From NCBI RefSeq assembly GCF_026125785.1, contig NZ_JAHCKL010000004.1, positions 62,001 to 126,000 of the forward strand: a stretch of DNA of 64,000 nucleotides, written 5' to 3'. A model generated the notes under the pieces. That model made no database searches. It saw only the letters and a program-made list of their open reading frames with translations, and was not told where the DNA came from. This document shows positions 40,108 through 62,847 of the stretch, piece by piece. Position numbers and translations under genes: made by a program. The first letter of the stretch is position 1. Each line of letters starts with the position of its first letter. The stretch comes from Hydrogenophaga sp. GTDB lineage: Bacteria > Pseudomonadota > Gammaproteobacteria > Burkholderiales > Burkholderiaceae_C.

Positions 40108-40123
40108 TGGCACCTTTATTGCT
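40108..40123 (+). promoter_or_regulatory. Sigma-54-type promoter of the first NMT1-type ABC operon
   Basis: TGGCACCTTTATTGCT matches 11 of 12 fixed positions of the -24/-12 consensus TGGCACGNNNNTTGCW, with GG and GC at the right spacing. Transcription would start near 40134, leaving a leader of about 60 nt before the ATG at 40194. Confidence 0.72.
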
Positions 40124-43386: not shown

Positions 43387-44406
43387 TCAGCGGTGCACCT
43401 CGGCCTCGCCCGCGGCGGACAGCAAGGCCATCAGCTTGCGGCGAATGAGGATGCCAGGCCGGTCCGAGTCCATGGAGTACTCCACGCCGCGCCGCCGCAG
43501 GTCCACCACCGCGTCCGGGTCGGTGGACTCCAGGATGTCCTTGTCCTCGCGGGTGATCTCATCGTCGAAATCGATCAGCATCTGCGCCGGGCAATCCGCT
43601 TCCGTGTCGTTGCGGAACAGCCATTGGCACAACTGCATGCGCCCATCGTCGATCGGAGTGAACGCGTTGATGATGACGTGCCGGATGCCGCTGGGGTACT
43701 CGATGTCGAGCCGGCGGGAAAACGGCAGGAAGTAGGCGTTGCGCATATGGCGCTGCGTGACCGGGTCCTTGACACCGCTGATGCGCCGGAAGCGCTCGGG
43801 ATTCGCAGCGTCGATCACCGTTTCCGCGGTGAAACCTGTCGGGTTCTCGGTCAGTTCGTACTTGCTCGGCGTGGGCGCATCGGCCACGCCGAAGGTGGCG
43901 CGGTGCACGAAGCTGAAATGAGAGTTGTCGAAAGAGTTCTCCAGCGCGCGCACGGGGCTGGTGTTCCAGGTCTCGTAGAACTGGAAGATCGTGCGCCAGC
44001 CCGGTGCACCGAACTCGGGCATGTCCGGTATCTCGGCCACCGGGTCTTCCAGCGCCACCCACGCGTAGCCATGGCGCGCCACGCAATGGTAGGCCGTGGT
44101 GCCGTAGTCCTTGGGGATCTCGCGTTCCGTCGGGTACTGCGGTATTTCGATCACGCGCCCGCTGCGGTTGTACACCCAGCCGTGGTAGCCGCACTGGATA
44201 TGGCCGTTCTTGCACCAGCCCTTGCTCAGGCGCGCGGTGCGGTGGCAGCAGCGGTCCTTCAGGGCCGCCGGCTCACCGTGTTCGTCGAGAAAGAGGACCA
44301 GTTGTTCACCCAGCAAGGTGAAGGGCCGGGGGCCTTGGGCCAGCTCCGTCAACGGCATGACGGCGTGCCAATAGCGGCGGAATACGGGCTGTTGAGTAAC
44401 CAGCAT
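43387..44406 (-). CDS. Rieske non-haem iron oxygenase under a riboswitch
   Basis: A 339-residue single-component oxygenase subunit. The Rieske cluster ligands are in DRCCHRTARLSKGWCKNGHIQCGYHGW (Cys-x-His and Cys-x-x-His). The mononuclear iron site is in ALENSFDNSHFSFVHRATFGV, with the bridging Asp and two His. The layout is like the VanA/NdmA group of demethylases and hydroxylases. Its reductase is not in the window. It stands divergent from the second NMT1-type binding protein, and its leader carries the RNA element at 44433-44490, so a purine or methylpurine substrate is likely. The exact reaction is unknown. Confidence 0.88.
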   Translation of the reverse strand: MLVTQQPVFRRYWHAVMPLTELAQGPRPFTLLGEQLVLFLDEHGEPAALKDRCCHRTARLSKGWCKNGHIQCGYHGWVYNRSGRVIEIPQYPTEREIPKDYGTTAYHCVARHGYAWVALEDPVAEIPDMPEFGAPGWRTIFQFYETWNTSPVRALENSFDNSHFSFVHRATFGVADAPTPSKYELTENPTGFTAETVIDAANPERFRRISGVKDPVTQRHMRNAYFLPFSRRLDIEYPSGIRHVIINAFTPIDDGRMQLCQWLFRNDTEADCPAQMLIDFDDEITREDKDILESTDPDAVVDLRRRGVEYSMDSDRPGILIRRKLMALLSAAGEAEVHR

Positions 44407-44432
44407 GGAAGCGCTCCTGAAGAAATGACTCT

Positions 44433-44490
44433 GGGTCCAAGAGCAATTTCCGGCCTCGCAGGACGCGAGGTTGAACGCTTCTACTCCGTG
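44433..44490 (-). ncRNA. Xanthine-I (NMT1 motif) riboswitch-like element, leftward copy
   Basis: Read on the minus strand: GAGTAGAAGCGTTCA, then a 6-bp hairpin (CCTCGC, loop GTCCT, GCGAGG), then CCGGAAATTGCTC. GAG and CTC at the ends can pair as the outer stem. The conserved internal-loop halves are identical in the rightward copy while the hairpin sequence differs but still pairs, which supports a structured RNA. They match my memory of the xanthine-I/NMT1 class, reported to sense xanthine and uric acid. It ends 27 bases before the oxygenase ATG, just before AGGAG, so control of translation is likely. Confidence 0.85.
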
Positions 44491-44501
44491 GCCTGCATGC
44501 T

Positions 44502-44517
44502 AGCAAATCGCAGGCCA
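44502..44517 (-). promoter_or_regulatory. Sigma-54-type promoter of the Rieske oxygenase gene
   Basis: On the minus strand TGGCCTGCGATTTGCT matches 10 of 12 fixed bases of the -24/-12 consensus with exact GG/GC spacing. The predicted start is about 44491, which is the 5' end of the leftward riboswitch-like element. It overlaps an inverted repeat with arms TGGCCTGC and GCAGGCCA (44489-44517). Confidence 0.62.
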
Positions 44518-44523
44518 TGGCGG

Positions 44524-44540
44524 TGCACGGCTTCGGTGCG
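44524..44540. promoter_or_regulatory. NtrC-like site midway between two divergent promoters
   Basis: TGCACG-N5-GGTGCG agrees with TGCACC-N5-GGTGCA at 10 of 12 fixed bases. Its centre is about 41-42 bp upstream of both predicted starts, closer than usual for NtrC enhancers. Confidence 0.35.
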
Positions 44541-44547
44541 CGCAGGC

Positions 44548-44563
44548 TGGCATGGCTTGTGCA
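44548..44563 (+). promoter_or_regulatory. Sigma-54-type promoter of the second binding-protein operon
   Basis: TGGCATGGCTTGTGCA matches 10 of 12 fixed bases of the -24/-12 consensus with exact GG/GC spacing. The predicted start is about 44574, exactly where the rightward riboswitch-like element begins. Confidence 0.65.
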
Positions 44564-44574
44564 AGGCAAGACGC

Positions 44575-44627
44575 GCAGAGTAGAAGCGTTCAGCGGCGCC
44601 ATGGCACCGCCCGGAAATTGCTCTTGT
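44575..44627 (+). ncRNA. Xanthine-I (NMT1 motif) riboswitch-like element, rightward copy
   Basis: GAGTAGAAGCGTTCA, then a hairpin (GCGGCGCC with GGCACCGC, one C-A mismatch), then CCGGAAATTGCTC. Both internal-loop halves are identical to the leftward copy, and the hairpin differs while keeping its pairing. It precedes a gene of the NMT1-type binding-protein group, the class after which the motif is named. It ends 62 bases before the ATG at 44690. The sensed ligand is inferred to be xanthine or urate. Confidence 0.87.
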
Positions 44628-44689
44628 ACGTCCTCGCGGGCCGACCTCGGCATCCGCCAGGTTTGAACAAGTTCCACCGGAGCCTTGCC

Positions 44690-45721
44690 ATGCAACGCCG
44701 CAGCTTCCTCGCCTCCTCCGTCGCCGCCGCCTCTTCCCTCGCCGCCCCCGCCTTGTGGGCACAGCCGGGCGGCAAACCCATCCCCATCAAGTTCACGCTG
44801 GACTTCCGCATCACCGGCCAGACCTCGCCCTTCTTTCTTGCACAGAGCAAGGGCTACTACCGGGACGAGGGGCTGGACGTCAGCATCGACGTGGGCTCGG
44901 GCTCCGTGGCGTCGATCACCCGCATCGCCAGCGGCGTCTACCAGATGGGACTGGGCGACATCAGTTCCCTCATCGAATTCCAGGCCGCCCAGGCCGGAAC
45001 CCCGCTGGTGCAGGCCGTCTACCAGTACTACAACCGCGCGCCCTTTGCCATCATCGGCCGCAAGGACCGTGGCATCACCACCGACTTTCGCAGCCTGCAA
45101 GGCAAGAAGATCGCCGCGGCGGCCGTCGAGTCCACTCGACGCGCCTGGCCCATGGTGGCGCGCAGGCTGCGCATCAAGGACGATCTCTTCCAGTGGTCCA
45201 CCACCGATTTCGCCTCGCGTGACAACGTGGTGGTGCGCGGCGATGTGGACGGTGCGACCTACTTCCACGATTCCGCGGTATCGCTGTTTGCTCGCATGAA
45301 GCTCGACGACCTCGTGGTGCTGCAGTACACGCAGGCAGGCGTGAACCTTTACGGCAACGCCATCCTCGCCAGCAACGCCATGGTCACGCAGCAACCCGCC
45401 GCCGTGGCGGCCTTCCTGCGCGCCACCAACCGCGCCATCCTGGAGAGCATGGCAGACCCCGCCGCAGCCATCGCGGCCACCCGGCAGCGTGAGCCCATCC
45501 TGAATGAAGCCGTAGAGCTTGAGCGCTGGCGCATCACCCGCCAGTACATCGCCGCGCCCGACACGCGCAGCCATGGCCTGGGCGACGTGCTCAAGCGCAC
45601 ACTGGAGCAACAGGTGGACGAGGTTGTCGACGTGTTCGGCCTGAAGACCCGCCCCGGCGTGGAGGGCCTGTTCAACCGCGCCATGCTGCCCGCCGCCAGC
45701 GAACGCACCGTCATCGCATGA
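44690..45721 (+). CDS. Second NMT1/TauA-type ABC substrate-binding protein
   Basis: A 343-residue periplasmic binding protein. The signal peptide begins MQRRSFLASSVAAASSLAAPALWAQ; RRSFL is a good twin-arginine motif. The mature protein opens IKFTLDFRITGQTSPFFLAQSKGYYRDEGLDVSIDVGSGS and resembles the binding protein at 40194 in length and layout. No ATPase or permease lies beside it, so it probably shares the 41307/42142 components. It overlaps the next gene, a deaminase, by ATGA. Expression is probably set by the upstream riboswitch and sigma-54-type promoter. Confidence 0.9.
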   Translation: MQRRSFLASSVAAASSLAAPALWAQPGGKPIPIKFTLDFRITGQTSPFFLAQSKGYYRDEGLDVSIDVGSGSVASITRIASGVYQMGLGDISSLIEFQAAQAGTPLVQAVYQYYNRAPFAIIGRKDRGITTDFRSLQGKKIAAAAVESTRRAWPMVARRLRIKDDLFQWSTTDFASRDNVVVRGDVDGATYFHDSAVSLFARMKLDDLVVLQYTQAGVNLYGNAILASNAMVTQQPAAVAAFLRATNRAILESMADPAAAIAATRQREPILNEAVELERWRITRQYIAAPDTRSHGLGDVLKRTLEQQVDEVVDVFGLKTRPGVEGLFNRAMLPAASERTVIA

Positions 45722-46242
45722 TCGCACCCGCACAACCCCGCCGCCCGGCACCTCCCGAGGCGGTACTGGACGAACGCGATGGCGCCTACCTTCGACAGGC
45801 CATCGCCTGGTCGCAGGTGGCCCGCGAGCGGGGCAACCGGCCCTTTGGCGCCATCGTGGTGGCTGCCGATGGCCGGGTGCTGGCCGAGGCCTGGTGCAAC
45901 ACCGCAGAGACCGGCGACTGCACCGGGCATGCGGAAACCAATGCGGTGCGGCAGCTCGGTTCGGCGGTGGACCGCAAGACGCTTGCAAGCGCCACGTTGT
46001 ACTCGTCGGCCGAACCTTGCGTCATGTGCGCAGGCGCCATCTTCTGGAGCAACATCGGCCGCGTCGTCTTCGGCATCGACGCGGTGAGCTTGCGCGTGTT
46101 CCGCGGTGAACGGCCCGAACAACGCGACGCGGAACTGTCCTGCCGTGACGTGTTCGACGCCTCGCCACACCCCATCGAGTGTGTGGGGCCCGCGCTCATC
46201 GACGAAGCCCGCCTTGCGCACCAGGGCTTCTGGAAAAGCTGA
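45718..46242 (+). CDS. Nucleobase/nucleoside deaminase, second paralogue
   Basis: A 174-residue zinc deaminase. His and the catalytic Glu are in CTGHAETNAVRQLGS, and the two zinc Cys are in SSAEPCVMCAGAIFWSNIGRVVFGID. RPFGAIVVAADGRVLAEAWCN is the family N-terminal region. It resembles short guanine deaminases and the paralogue at 42906; both follow an NMT1-type binding protein gene. Its start overlaps the binding-protein stop, and ureD begins 17 bp after its stop, so the three appear to be one transcript. Confidence 0.88.
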   Translation: MIAPAQPRRPAPPEAVLDERDGAYLRQAIAWSQVARERGNRPFGAIVVAADGRVLAEAWCNTAETGDCTGHAETNAVRQLGSAVDRKTLASATLYSSAEPCVMCAGAIFWSNIGRVVFGIDAVSLRVFRGERPEQRDAELSCRDVFDASPHPIECVGPALIDEARLAHQGFWKS

Positions 46243-56196: not shown

Positions 56197-59100
56197 GGTG
56201 TTGCAGCAATTGCTGTTCGATGGCTTCGAAACGGAACTCACGCGCCAGGGCGCGCAACGACTGGGCAAAGGCGGCCTGCTCGGGATGGCGCGACACCCAT
56301 TCGTCCAGCCATTGCACGATGCCCTTGTAGTACCCCAGGCGGACCAGCTCCAGCAGGGGTTCGATCTCGGCGCGGCTGGCCGGGGCGGGCGCTGCCGGCG
56401 CCGGGACCGGGGTGGGTTGCGCCGGCTCGATGCCAGCGCCCAGCCAGTCGAGCGAGAGCTTCTGGCCCAGCCAGTTCAGCAGGTCGTCGCGCCGCACCGG
56501 CTTGACGAAGAAATCCTGCGGGCGATGGCCCTGGTCGCCGTCTTCCGCCTGCAGGCCCTTGTCGAAGGCATTGGCCGAAACGATGGCCAGGGGCACGGCA
56601 CCCCACCCACGCGCCCGCAGGCGGCGCAGCGTCTCCCAGCCGTCGATGCCGGGCATGGCCAGGTCCATGAAGACCGCGTGCGGCGCCTGCGGCCCACCGG
56701 GCTGCAGGTCATCGAGCAGGGCCAGCGCATCGAGGCCGCTGGTGGCCAACATCACCTCGAACCCCAGCGGCGCCAGCCAGCGCGAGAGCAGTTCCCGGTC
56801 GGCCTCCTCGTTGTCCACCACCAGCACGCGGCGGCGCTCGCCCGTGTAGCCGGTGAACTGCAGGGCCGCCTGCGGCCCGGGCAGCACCGCGCCGTGCAAC
56901 TCCGGCAGGAACAGGCGAACCGTGAACACCGTGCCCTGCCCGGGTGCGCTGCGCACGGTCATCTCGCCGCCCATGAGGTCGGTGAGCATCTTGGCGATGG
57001 TCAGGCCCAGCCCGGTGCCCGCGCCAGCCGCCGAGGCGGCGTCACCCTGCCCGCGCGCGAAAGGCTCGAACACACGTTCAAGCTCCTGCGCGCTCATGCC
57101 TGGCCCGGTGTCGTGCACCTCGAACTGGGCCATCTCGCGCTGGTGCGTGACGCGCAGCCGCACCTGGCCCTGGCGGGTGAACTTGACCGCATTGCCCAGC
57201 AGGTTGATCAGGATCTGCCGCAGGCGCTTCTCGTCGGCGCGCACCGCGTCCGGCAGACGCCCACCGGTCTCGAATGCAAAGCGCAGGCCCTTGGCGGCGG
57301 CCTGCAGCTCGAACATGCTGGCCACCTCCTGCATGGTCCCGGCGAAGGCCATGGGCCGCACGTCCAGCGCCAGCTTGCCCGACTCGATGCGCGCGATGTC
57401 CAGCGTGCCATCGATCAGCGAAAGCAGGTGCTCGCCGCCGCGGTGGATCACACGGATGGCCTGCGCCCGGTGCGGTGCCATGCCGGTGTCCTCCTGCAAC
57501 AGTTGCGCGTAGCCCAGGATGCTGTTGAGCGGCGTGCGCAGTTCGTGGCTGATGGTGGAGATGTAGCGTGTCTTGGCCTGGTTGGCCTGTTCGGCTGCGT
57601 GGCGTGCCTGCTGCAGGGCTTCGTCGGTGCGCTGGTGCGACTCGATCTCCTGCATCAGCAGACGCGTCTGGCGGTTGGACTCCTCCTGTGCCACCTCACG
57701 GCTCTTGTGCGCCAGCACCAGCCACCAGGCCACGGTGGCGGCGATCAGCAGCAGCACCGCGTAGACGCGCACGAAACCTGAGCGCAGCGCGGCATCGAGC
57801 AGCGAGACGTTGGCGGCCACGCCCAGCCCCTGGCTCAGGCCCTCCACTTCCTGGCGGTACAGCAGCCCCAGCACCGCCGCCAGCACGGGTGCGATCACCA
57901 GCATGAGCAGCAGGTAGTGCGCCAGACCCGCTTCCAGGTAGGGCCACACGGTGCGCGGCATCACGTGGCGCAGCGCCCCCATCCACTGCTCGGACAGGCG
58001 CGCATGCGGCTTGCAGAGGTCGCCGCAGCGCGCATCCAGCGTGCAGCACAGCGAGCAGATGTGGCCCTGGTAGGCCGGGCAGTGCGCCATGTCGGGGGCC
58101 TCGTATTCGCGCTCGCATATGACGCAGGTGTGGGTGACACCCCCGGCGCGGCCTGCGGCGTCGGGGGTCGCACTGGCCACCTGGCGCAGCCAGATCCCCG
58201 GCGCGGCCGTGCGCGCCTCGCCACCGCTTCTGGCGATGTAGTAGCGCCCCTGGGTGATCCAGGCGATCGCCGGGGCCGCCACCAGCGCCGTCACCATCGC
58301 GATCAGGGCCGAAAAGGCCTGCGGCCCCGGCCCCATGAGCCCGGTGTGCGCCAGGATCGACAGCGCCGATGCCAGGCCCATGGCGCCCACACCCACGGGG
58401 TTGATGTCGTACAGGTAGGCGCGCTTGAACTCGATGCCCTTGGGCGACCAGCCCAGCGGCTTGTTGATCACCAGGTCTGCCACCACCGCCATGATCCAGG
58501 CGATGGCGATGTTGGAGTACACGCCCAGCACCTCGCCCAAGGCCTGGAACACGTTCATCTCCATCAGCATGAAGGCGATCAGTGTGTTGAACACCACCCA
58601 CACCACGCGCCCTGGGTGGCTGTGCGTGATGCGGGAGAAGAAGTTGCTCCACGCCAGCGAACCGGCGTAGGCGTTGGTGACGTTGATCTTGAGCTGGGAC
58701 ACCACCACGAAAAGCGCCGTCGCGGCCACCGCCCAGCCGTAGTCCGTGAACACGAACTCGTAGGCCGCTAGGTACATCTGGTTGGGGTCGACCGCGCGCT
58801 CGGGCGGCACCATGTGGCTGATGGCCAGGTAGGCCAGCAGGGCGCCGCCCAGCATTTTGATCACGCCGATCACCACCCAACCCGGGCCACCGGCGAGCAC
58901 GCCGGCCCACCAGCGCCAGGCCTTGCCCGGCACGCGGGCGGGCATGAAGCGCAGGTAGTCGGCCTGCTCGCCCATCTGGGTGATGAGCGCGATGCCCACC
59001 GTCAGAGCCGCACCAAACAAGTGCCAATCGAAGCGGGTGCCTGCACCAGATTCGCCTCCGTAATGCACCACGTTGGTGAATGTCTCTGGCGCCATCCAGG

Positions 59101-59738: not shown

Positions 59739-59754
59739 TGCAGCTTTCATGCCA
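59739..59754 (-). promoter_or_regulatory. Sigma-54-like element before the kinase gene
   Basis: On the minus strand TGGCATGAAAGCTGCA matches 10 of 12 fixed bases of the -24/-12 consensus. The predicted start falls at about 59728, the annotated GTG itself, so either the true start codon is further in, or the message is leaderless, or the match is chance. Confidence 0.35.
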
Positions 59755-59766
59755 CGCCGGCGCGTG

Positions 59767-59782
59767 GGGCACGGGAATTGCT
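59767..59782 (+). promoter_or_regulatory. Sigma-54-type promoter of the urease operon
   Basis: GGGCACGGGAATTGCT matches 11 of 12 fixed bases of TGGCACGNNNNTTGCW, with exact GG/GC spacing. Transcription would start near 59793, 30 bp before the ureA ATG. A 9-of-12 NtrC-like site (59726-59742) lies just upstream. Confidence 0.7.
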
Positions 59783-61128: not shown

Positions 61129-62847
61129 ATGGCCCACATTGCCCGAAGCGCCTACGCCGACATGTTCGGCCCCACCGTGGGCGACCGCCTGCGCCTGGCC
61201 GACACCGGCCTGGTGATCGAGATCGAGAAGGATTTCACCCTCTCTGCCGGCGGCTACGGCGAGGAAGTCAAGTTCGGCGGCGGCAAGACCATCCGCGACG
61301 GCATGGCACAGAGCCAGCGCACGCGCGCCGAAGGCGCAGTGGACACCGTGCTGACCAACGCCGTCGTCATCGACCACTGGGGCATCGTCAAGGCCGACAT
61401 CGGCCTCAAGGGCGGGCGCATCGTGGCCATCGGCAAGGCCGGCAATCCGGACACCATGCCGGGGGTGGACATCGTCATCGGCCCGGGCACCGAAGTCATC
61501 AGCTGCGAAGGCAGCATCGTCACCGCGGGCGGCATCGACAGCCACATCCATTTCATCTGCCCGCAGCAGGTGGACGAGGCCCTGGCCTCGGGCGTCACCA
61601 CCATGCTCGGCGGCGGCACTGGCCCTGCCACCGGTACCTTCGCCACCACCTGCACGCCCGGCCCCTGGCACATCGAACGCATACTGCAGGCCGCCGATGG
61701 GCTGCCCATGAACCTGGGTTTCCTCGGCAAGGGCAACGCCAGCCTGCCGAATGCGCTGCACGAACAGATCAACGCCGGCGTCATCGGCCTCAAGCTGCAC
61801 GAGGACTGGGGCACCACGCCCTCGGCCATCGACAACTGCCTGGCCGTGGCCGAACAGGCCGACGTGCAGGTGGCCATCCACAGCGACACCCTCAACGAGT
61901 CCGGCTTCGTGGAAAACACCATCGCCGCCACCCGGGGGCGCACGCTGTGCGCCTTCCACACCGAGGGGGCGGGCGGCGGCCATGCGCCAGACATCCTGCG
62001 CGTGGTGGGCGAAGGCAACTTCCTGCCCTCCTCCACCAACCCCACCATGCCCTACACCGTGAACACGCTGGACGAGCACGTGGACATGCTGATGGTGTGC
62101 CACCACCTGGACGCGGGCATCGCCGAAGACCTCGCCTTCGCGGAAAGCCGCATCCGCCGCGAGACGATCGCCGCCGAGGACATCCTGCACGACATGGGCG
62201 CCATCAGCATGATGAGCAGCGACAGCCAGGCCATGGGCCGGGTCGGCGAGGTCATCATCCGCACCTGGCAGACCGCCGACAAAATGAAGACCCAGCGCGG
62301 CGTGCTGCCCGAGGACAGCGCGCGCAACGACAACTTCCGCGTCAAGCGCTACATCGCCAAGTACACGATCAACCCGGCCATCGCGCACGGTGTCTCGCAC
62401 GTGGTGGGCTCGCTGGAGGTCGGCAAGTGGGCCGACCTGGTGATCTGGAAACCCGCCTTCTTCGGCGTCAAGCCCGCGCTGGTGCTCAAGGGCGGCAGCA
62501 TCGCGCTGGCCGCCATGGGCGACCCGAACGCCTCCATCCCCACGCCGCAGCCGGTGCACTACCGGCCCATGTTCGGCAGCTACGGCGGCGCCACCGCCCG
62601 GGGCAGCCTGACCTTCGTCTCGCAGGCCGCGCTTTCGGCCGGTGTGGGTGAGCGCTTCGGCCTGCACAAACCGCTGGTGGCGGTGCAGGGCTGCCGGGGC
62701 GTCACCAAGGCGCAGATGGTGCACAACAGCCTGCTGCCCCGCATGGAAATCGACGCGCAGACCTATTCGGTGCGCGCCGACGGCCAGTTGCTCACCTGCG
62801 AACCCGCCAGCAAGCTGCCCATGGCCCAACGCTACTTCCTGTTCTGA
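61129..62847 (+). CDS. ureC: Urease alpha subunit (catalytic)
   Basis: Catalytic nickel subunit, 572 residues (family about 567-572). The metal-binding His pair is in [14 protein letters not shown]. The carbamylated Lys bridging the two nickels is in [19 protein letters not shown]. Further His ligands are in [13 protein letters not shown] and [13 protein letters not shown]. The flap with catalytic His is [37 protein letters not shown], and the Asp ligand is in [12 protein letters not shown]. All are intact, so urease should be active if matured. ureE follows 4 bp later. Confidence 0.99.

Follow-up and report, generated by a model that had tools for sequence, protein, structure and literature searches.

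Sigma-54-type promoter sites at a fixed position beside two facing xanthine riboswitch aptamers in Hydrogenophaga

Introduction

In a Hydrogenophaga genome, two copies of a conserved RNA face each other across the intergenic region between a Rieske oxygenase gene and a divergent gene for an NMT1-type binding protein, which raises the questions of what these RNAs respond to and from which promoters they are transcribed. The first-pass annotation of the window (the whole stretch of DNA analysed here, 64,000 nucleotides long) had named them xanthine (NMT1) riboswitches and had called their arrangement unusual. In print, the ligands of this class are xanthine (approximately 3.7 uM) and uric acid (approximately 25 uM), binding turns translation off and, according to the available part of the structural literature, the structure of an RNA–xanthine complex has been solved.

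Results

Two aptamers of the xanthine riboswitch class in a divergent control region

The region was compared with the Rfam family RF03054 (NMT1 RNA; curated cut-off 36 bits) by using Infernal, and the following aptamers and genes were located.

43387..44406, minus strand: Rieske non-haem iron oxygenase gene (PF00355, PF19112; Rieske/VanA_C), ATG at 44406
44436..44491, minus strand: xanthine (NMT1) riboswitch aptamer in the Rieske leader; full-length RF03054 match, 53.2 bits, E 5.2e-9
44573..44628, plus strand: xanthine (NMT1) riboswitch aptamer in the leader of the NMT1-type binding-protein gene; full-length RF03054 match, 51.9 bits, E 1.2e-8
44690..45721, plus strand: NMT1/THI5-like substrate-binding protein gene (PF09084), ATG at 44690
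45718..46242, plus strand: deaminase gene, cytidine/TadA fold, which overlaps the binding-protein gene at its stop

These matches bore out most of the first-pass annotation. The conserved halves, which it had described as occurring twice on opposite strands with each pair around a hairpin, were found at 44436-44491 (minus) and 44573-44628 (plus); the hairpin sequence differs between the copies and still pairs in both matches; the class name and ligand agree with RF03054 and with the published xanthine/uric acid class; and domain matches at 43387-44406 (minus) and 44690-45721 (plus) identify the neighbours as the Rieske oxygenase and the NMT1-type binding protein that it had named. The lack of a covariance-model match, which it had given as refuting its claim, did not occur on either strand (53.2 and 51.9 bits vs. 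36).

Each strand of the 64-kb window contains a single GAGTAGAAGCGTTCA and a single CCGGAAATTGCTC, within the two aptamers. Both aptamers also keep GAGUAGAAGCGUUCA and CCGGAAAUUGCUC, as does the crystallised Ideonella RNA; in the accessible text of the crystal-structure paper, the xanthine pocket is formed by J1 and J2 nucleotides located in these halves. The P2b hairpin differs in sequence between the two copies with its pairing intact, and across aptamers changes on both sides with pairing kept were seen at 5 of 13 pairs. Sequence comparison supports the assignment of both RNAs to the known xanthine riboswitch class RF03054 and, by analogy with its published members, these two predicted riboswitches would bind xanthine or urate and repress translation. 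With a full-length match, both conserved halves and the same gene associations, the aptamer itself is no different from the class; what this locus adds is promoter context.

Both aptamers lie 5' of purine oxidation, transport or deaminase genes, the gene context expected of the class. The Rieske gene has an AGGAG ribosome site 7 nt 5' of its ATG, and its end (43387) adjoins a convergent gene (43382), so that this arm looks monocistronic. On the other arm, the TadA-fold deaminase gene is probably on one transcript with the binding-protein gene. No intrinsic terminator was found at 44380-44720, in line with the published translational mechanism. According to Infernal, the two copies at this locus are the sole RF03054 copies in the genome (4.17 Mb, 94% complete), and a permissive Rfam scan of 34-64 kb, which takes in the xanthine permease and the first NMT1 operon, gave no extra aptamers.

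The facing arrangement is common among carriers

A facing pair of NMT1 motifs in Hydrogenophaga intermedia S1 is already described in the legend of Fig. 5 of Yu and Breaker 2020 (PMC7373994), and one arm of that pair is, in the available text of the same paper, a published OFF switch. It shares genus and facing orientation with our locus, the flanking-gene homologues are 86% (Rieske) and 80% (NMT1) identical, and the intergenic region aligns throughout; judged by sequence, this locus is the published H. intermedia locus in another species. From the wording 'right-most' and the orientation of the contig, we infer that the arm tested in print was the NMT1 side. The reporter ran from the E. coli thiC promoter, not the native one (PMC7373994).

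The RNA was present in 30 of the 67 genomes of the genus, with a facing pair in 28 of these 30 carriers, and the spacer between the two aptamers, 81 bp at our locus, measured exactly 81 nt in 10 of the 28 pairs. In the family sample, 75 of 399 genomes carried the RNA and 44 of the 75 had a facing pair (42 of 72 carriers without the own genus). Aptamers also occur singly in some carriers of the genus and family samples, and no other orientation was found in either set for matches less than 600 bases apart. Carriers numbered 4 of 369 genomes in the class sample (two from the own genus, the own genome included, and two weak) and 17 of 398 in the phylum sample; searches over 40 genomes used stricter filters, by which weak matches were lost. 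The annotated view of the arrangement as unusual does not hold, since the facing pair is the majority among carriers in genus and family and was already in print. The riboswitch class and the facing arrangement are thus known, and in these respects the locus only adds a member. Taken overall, the first-pass annotation was right about class and ligand, wrong about the rarity of the arrangement, and overlooked two sigma-54-type sites in the spacer.

Two sigma-54-type sites in the spacer

The two sites lie back to back within the 81-bp spacer.

44502..44517, minus strand: sigma-54 (-24/-12) promoter-like site TGGCCTGCGATTTGCT; 9/11 consensus positions, predicted RNA start at about 44491
44548..44563, plus strand: sigma-54 (-24/-12) promoter-like site TGGCATGGCTTGTGCA; 9/11 consensus positions, predicted RNA start at about 44574

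At both, the -24 GG and the -12 GC are ten bases apart and the flanking consensus is present. When the GC is set at -13/-12, the predicted starts, 44574 (plus) and 44491 (minus), fall 4 and 5 nt 5' of the first invariant G of the respective aptamer. Alignment of 24 Rieske/NMT1 intergenic regions revealed two conserved inter-aptamer blocks, one per strand, with the sequence TGGCNYG-N4-NTGCW, which, as a sequence pattern, is that of the sigma-54 (-24/-12) promoter. The consensus appears in the available text of the literature as TGGCACnnTTnTTGC and, in a second form, as TGGCAC-N5-7-TTGCT; the 11-position consensus used for scoring agrees with the printed one.

Each of the 28 facing pairs in the genus carried a site scoring 8/11 or better at this position on each arm (56 of 56 aptamers), a count that excludes two single-copy carriers (G007 and G047). 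The window as a whole holds 35 sites of at least 9/11, vs. 14-31 in ten shuffles. As single sites of this quality are not rare and lie near background, it is their position and conservation that carry the argument. Genome-wide, rpoN gave one match and sigma-54 activator domains gave eight strong ones.

Some further sites were noted elsewhere in the window. The only 11/11 sigma-54 site, TGGCACCTTTATTGCT, at 40108-40123 (plus), lies approximately 70 nt 5' of the inferred start (ATG 40194) of the operon of the first NMT1-type gene and an ABC transporter, which is without a riboswitch. The adjoining purine block may share this promoter type; sites of at least 10/11 were not enriched window-wide (3 vs. 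1-8 in shuffles). In or near the presumed urease region, two sigma-54-like sites (9/11 and 10/11) point apart at 59739-59782, and an NtrC-box-like sequence matches at 13/14 positions at 59064-59080. An Rfam match to the 5'ureB sRNA (RF02514, 75.4 bits) at 61293-61577 (minus) runs antisense inside a 572-aa open reading frame (61129-62847) that has the size of urease alpha; it probably reflects coding conservation and not a true sRNA.

The site is locked to the aptamer in betaproteobacteria

A covariance model of our own was built and loci from named genomes (at least 120 stretches, with the exact core required in at least one copy per locus) were searched, giving 217 matches among those listed. 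The 184 listed matches of at least 35 bits, from 110 named loci, were used, and the removal of two near an end left 182; weaker matches and matches in unnamed loci were left out. Alpha-, beta- and gammaproteobacterial labels were assigned from record titles and taxonomy; the 28 betaproteobacterial ones include unplaced MAGs, and Hydrogenophaga appears under two of them. A preliminary pattern count over 289 aptamers drew on overlapping sets and served as a first look only.

Of the 128 betaproteobacterial aptamers among the matches listed, 125 carried the site with its GC 7-12 nt ahead of model position 1, as against 1 and 2 of the 128 for two equal-width control windows further upstream. The three exceptions among these 128 listed aptamers were L066, with the site slightly further up, and two from Pseudacidovorax without any. 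All 28 betaproteobacterial labels among the matches listed had at least one site, which was found in 25 of 26 non-divergent and 100 of 102 divergent copies. Since non-divergent copies carry it too, the site is a feature of the riboswitch rather than of the facing arrangement.

A pattern test free of any sigma-54 assumption, covering 3,328 gapped dinucleotide patterns, gave GG-N10-GC, tied with the overlapping GG-N9-TG, as the commonest (26 of 28 labels among the matches listed; 3 and 7 labels in the control windows). Aptamers of other classes from the same family showed no such peak: a site within 5-45 nt was seen in 2 of 26 TPP leaders and 2 of 29 glycine aptamers, after too-short loci had been dropped (4 of 30 and 1 of 30, respectively). 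The TPP control is the better one, because glycine aptamers are often tandem and their upstream stretch is sometimes the other aptamer.

In gammaproteobacteria, 2 of 30 aptamers among the matches listed had the site at the core position, and 20 of 30 more had one 15-45 nt upstream, in a window of roughly three times the width; as 11-nt control windows gave 1-2 of 30 among the matches listed, chance may account for a few of the 20. Where gammaproteobacterial boxes are clear, their position varies separately from that of the RNA, an argument against counting them as aptamer sequence. The site was present in 9 of 20 alphaproteobacterial aptamers and in 1 of 4 unplaced ones (plus one further up) among the matches listed. 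The near-universal coupling is limited to betaproteobacteria.

Two other configurations were observed. In Pseudomonas and Halopseudomonas (L096, L115, L119, L167 and L179), the site of one arm lies approximately 20 nt further upstream than in betaproteobacteria, and the extra leader sequence (e.g., GCCGCAGGATTATCCTCGGC) looks like an added 5' hairpin. In Chelativorans, Rhizobium, Aquibium and Ciceribacter (L080, L107, L116, L128 and L132), two aptamers lie on the same strand, 2.8-4.1 kb apart, with a sigma-54-like site at the upstream copy and none at the downstream copy.

A candidate activator site

Between the two promoter-like sites, at the midpoint of the spacer, we noted one further feature.

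44524..44540, no strand assigned: NtrC-box-like dyad TGCAC-N7-GTGCg (tentative), 1 mismatch in 10 half-site positions

At -42, this dyad is close for an enhancer. Against the full NtrC box, printed as TGCACCAnnnTGGTGCA in the available text of PMC8743547, it fits 10 of 14 positions, and scores of at least 11 are reached at 12 other places in the window. Within the genus, a dyad with at most one mismatch was present in 5 of 28 spacers (200 shuffles: mean 0.65, maximum 4) and one with two mismatches in 10 of 28, inside the shuffle range (mean 4.5, maximum 11). The best dyad lay at most 1 nt from the midpoint in 10 of the 28 genus spacers, half of those with three mismatches. In a wider upstream count, the dyad was found in 9 of 41 genus labels among the matches listed, vs. 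0-5 in 12 shuffles; dyads rich in G+C equalled or exceeded this frequency (up to 12 of 41 labels among the matches listed, shuffle maximum 12-14).

A universal NtrC box in the spacer was rejected: GCAC-N7-GTGC occurred in 4 loci among the 58 named spacers listed (own shuffle mean 0.54, maximum 3; for the best dyad of any kind, mean 6.3 and maximum 8). Some Variovorax spacers measure only 55-64 nt, leaving no room for a box. NtrC-like scores do cluster 50-200 nt upstream of predicted starts, with 50 hits of at least 10/12 for 136 promoters among the matches listed, where a site in a facing pair was scored once for each arm. NtrC-like hits of 11/12 near +430 and -500 recur in four Variovorax loci and are taken to be coding conservation.

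By analogy, NtrC is a plausible activator. The review PMC9240774 (citing de la Riva 2008), in the part available to us, reports NtrC activation of the hpx purine genes of Klebsiella, and the nitrogen-limitation control of purine oxidation genes described there is likewise proposed here. Directly after NtrC and hpx, that passage goes on to NMT1-motif xanthine riboswitches, which it presents as an adaptation of K. pneumoniae; it describes no sigma-54 promoter at the riboswitch and leaves NtrC and riboswitch unlinked.

Ligand response and alternative explanations

Folding of the leaders bears on the direction of the response. On the Rieske arm, the pocket strand GAAGCG is complementary to CGCTTCC, located between the ribosome site and the ATG (44403-44425, minus), and among the 24 aligned loci some relatives vary at this stretch yet keep the pairing through G-U. 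An opposite polarity, in which xanthine would activate the Rieske arm but repress the NMT1 arm as the ligand-free GAAGCG pairs with CGCUUC before the start codon, is suggested by the folding model: pairing between the pocket strand and the ribosome-site region averaged 0.64 on the Rieske side, vs. 0.08 with shuffled tails, and exceeded the shuffle in 20 of 24 related leaders, with values of 0.06 vs. 0.04 on the NMT1 side. We nevertheless consider this polarity unlikely. L016, L029, L040 and L052 lack the pairing, L045 shows it weakly (0.24), and the 24 leaders, being relatives, are not independent. Moreover, with ligand bound, this model predicts that the ribosome site is less occluded on each of the two arms (on the NMT1 side in 14 of 24 leaders). 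The published OFF direction is thus reproduced on neither, and we draw no polarity from folding.

Two other explanations concern the nature of the sites and of the repeat. That these are ordinary xanthine riboswitches behind sigma-70 promoters, with the TGGC and TGC boxes present by chance or as part of a longer RNA motif, would fit the roughly background frequency of single 9/11 sites in the window and the absence of a core-position site from 11 of 20 alphaproteobacterial copies among the matches listed. It is quite improbable given that the offset is constant in 125 of the 128 betaproteobacterial aptamers among the matches listed and that several gammaproteobacteria have boxes which, about 20 nt further upstream, look like a separate module; further, 44380-44720 holds no sigma-70-type consensus site. 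The halves also form an inverted repeat around the spacer, as they would if the facing aptamers were mainly a DNA element bound by a regulator, and not RNA switches. To this we give almost no credence, given that single aptamers occur, that pairing is kept through the two-sided changes at 5 of 13 pairs and that the class has the solved RNA–xanthine structure mentioned above.

Discussion

Our results make it very probable that the two xanthine riboswitches form the extreme 5' ends of divergent mRNAs, each transcribed from its own sigma-54 promoter and each turned off by xanthine. The aptamers, the genes and the promoter-like sites, with their fixed position and conservation, were observed here; ligand binding and the OFF action of one H. 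intermedia arm come from the literature. From these we infer the use of sigma-54, the identity of the activator and the OFF action at this locus. Under nitrogen limitation, an enhancer-binding protein, most likely NtrC, would fire both sigma-54 promoters, and each transcript would open with its aptamer, starting 4-5 nt before the first invariant base. On a build-up of xanthine or urate, the aptamer would close and translation would be lowered, the net gate being nitrogen-limited AND NOT xanthine-rich.

At a more general level, we regard it as reasonably likely that the betaproteobacterial xanthine riboswitch is a composite module, in which a sigma-54 start is fused to the 5' edge of the aptamer and, in facing pairs, one activator site midway fires both arms as an AND NOT gate; the Rieske arm may respond oppositely.

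Searches of the main text of PMC7373994 for sigma, RpoN and NtrC terms found no sigma factor, and a term search of the available text of the crystal-structure paper found none either. Across the main texts, titles and abstract openings searched, no description of a coupling between sigma-54 and the xanthine riboswitch was found, and an earlier mention is possible.

The promoter link predicts RpoN dependence and exact start sites. It also suggests that reporter work driven from the E. coli thiC promoter left out half of the native control. If the link is true, transcription of nearly the entire riboswitch class would depend, at least in betaproteobacteria, on a single alternative sigma factor; its confirmation would tie a riboswitch class closely to a single such factor and would explain when these switches get transcribed at all. 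The OFF switch would then be a second-tier brake on genes already turned on for nitrogen scavenging.
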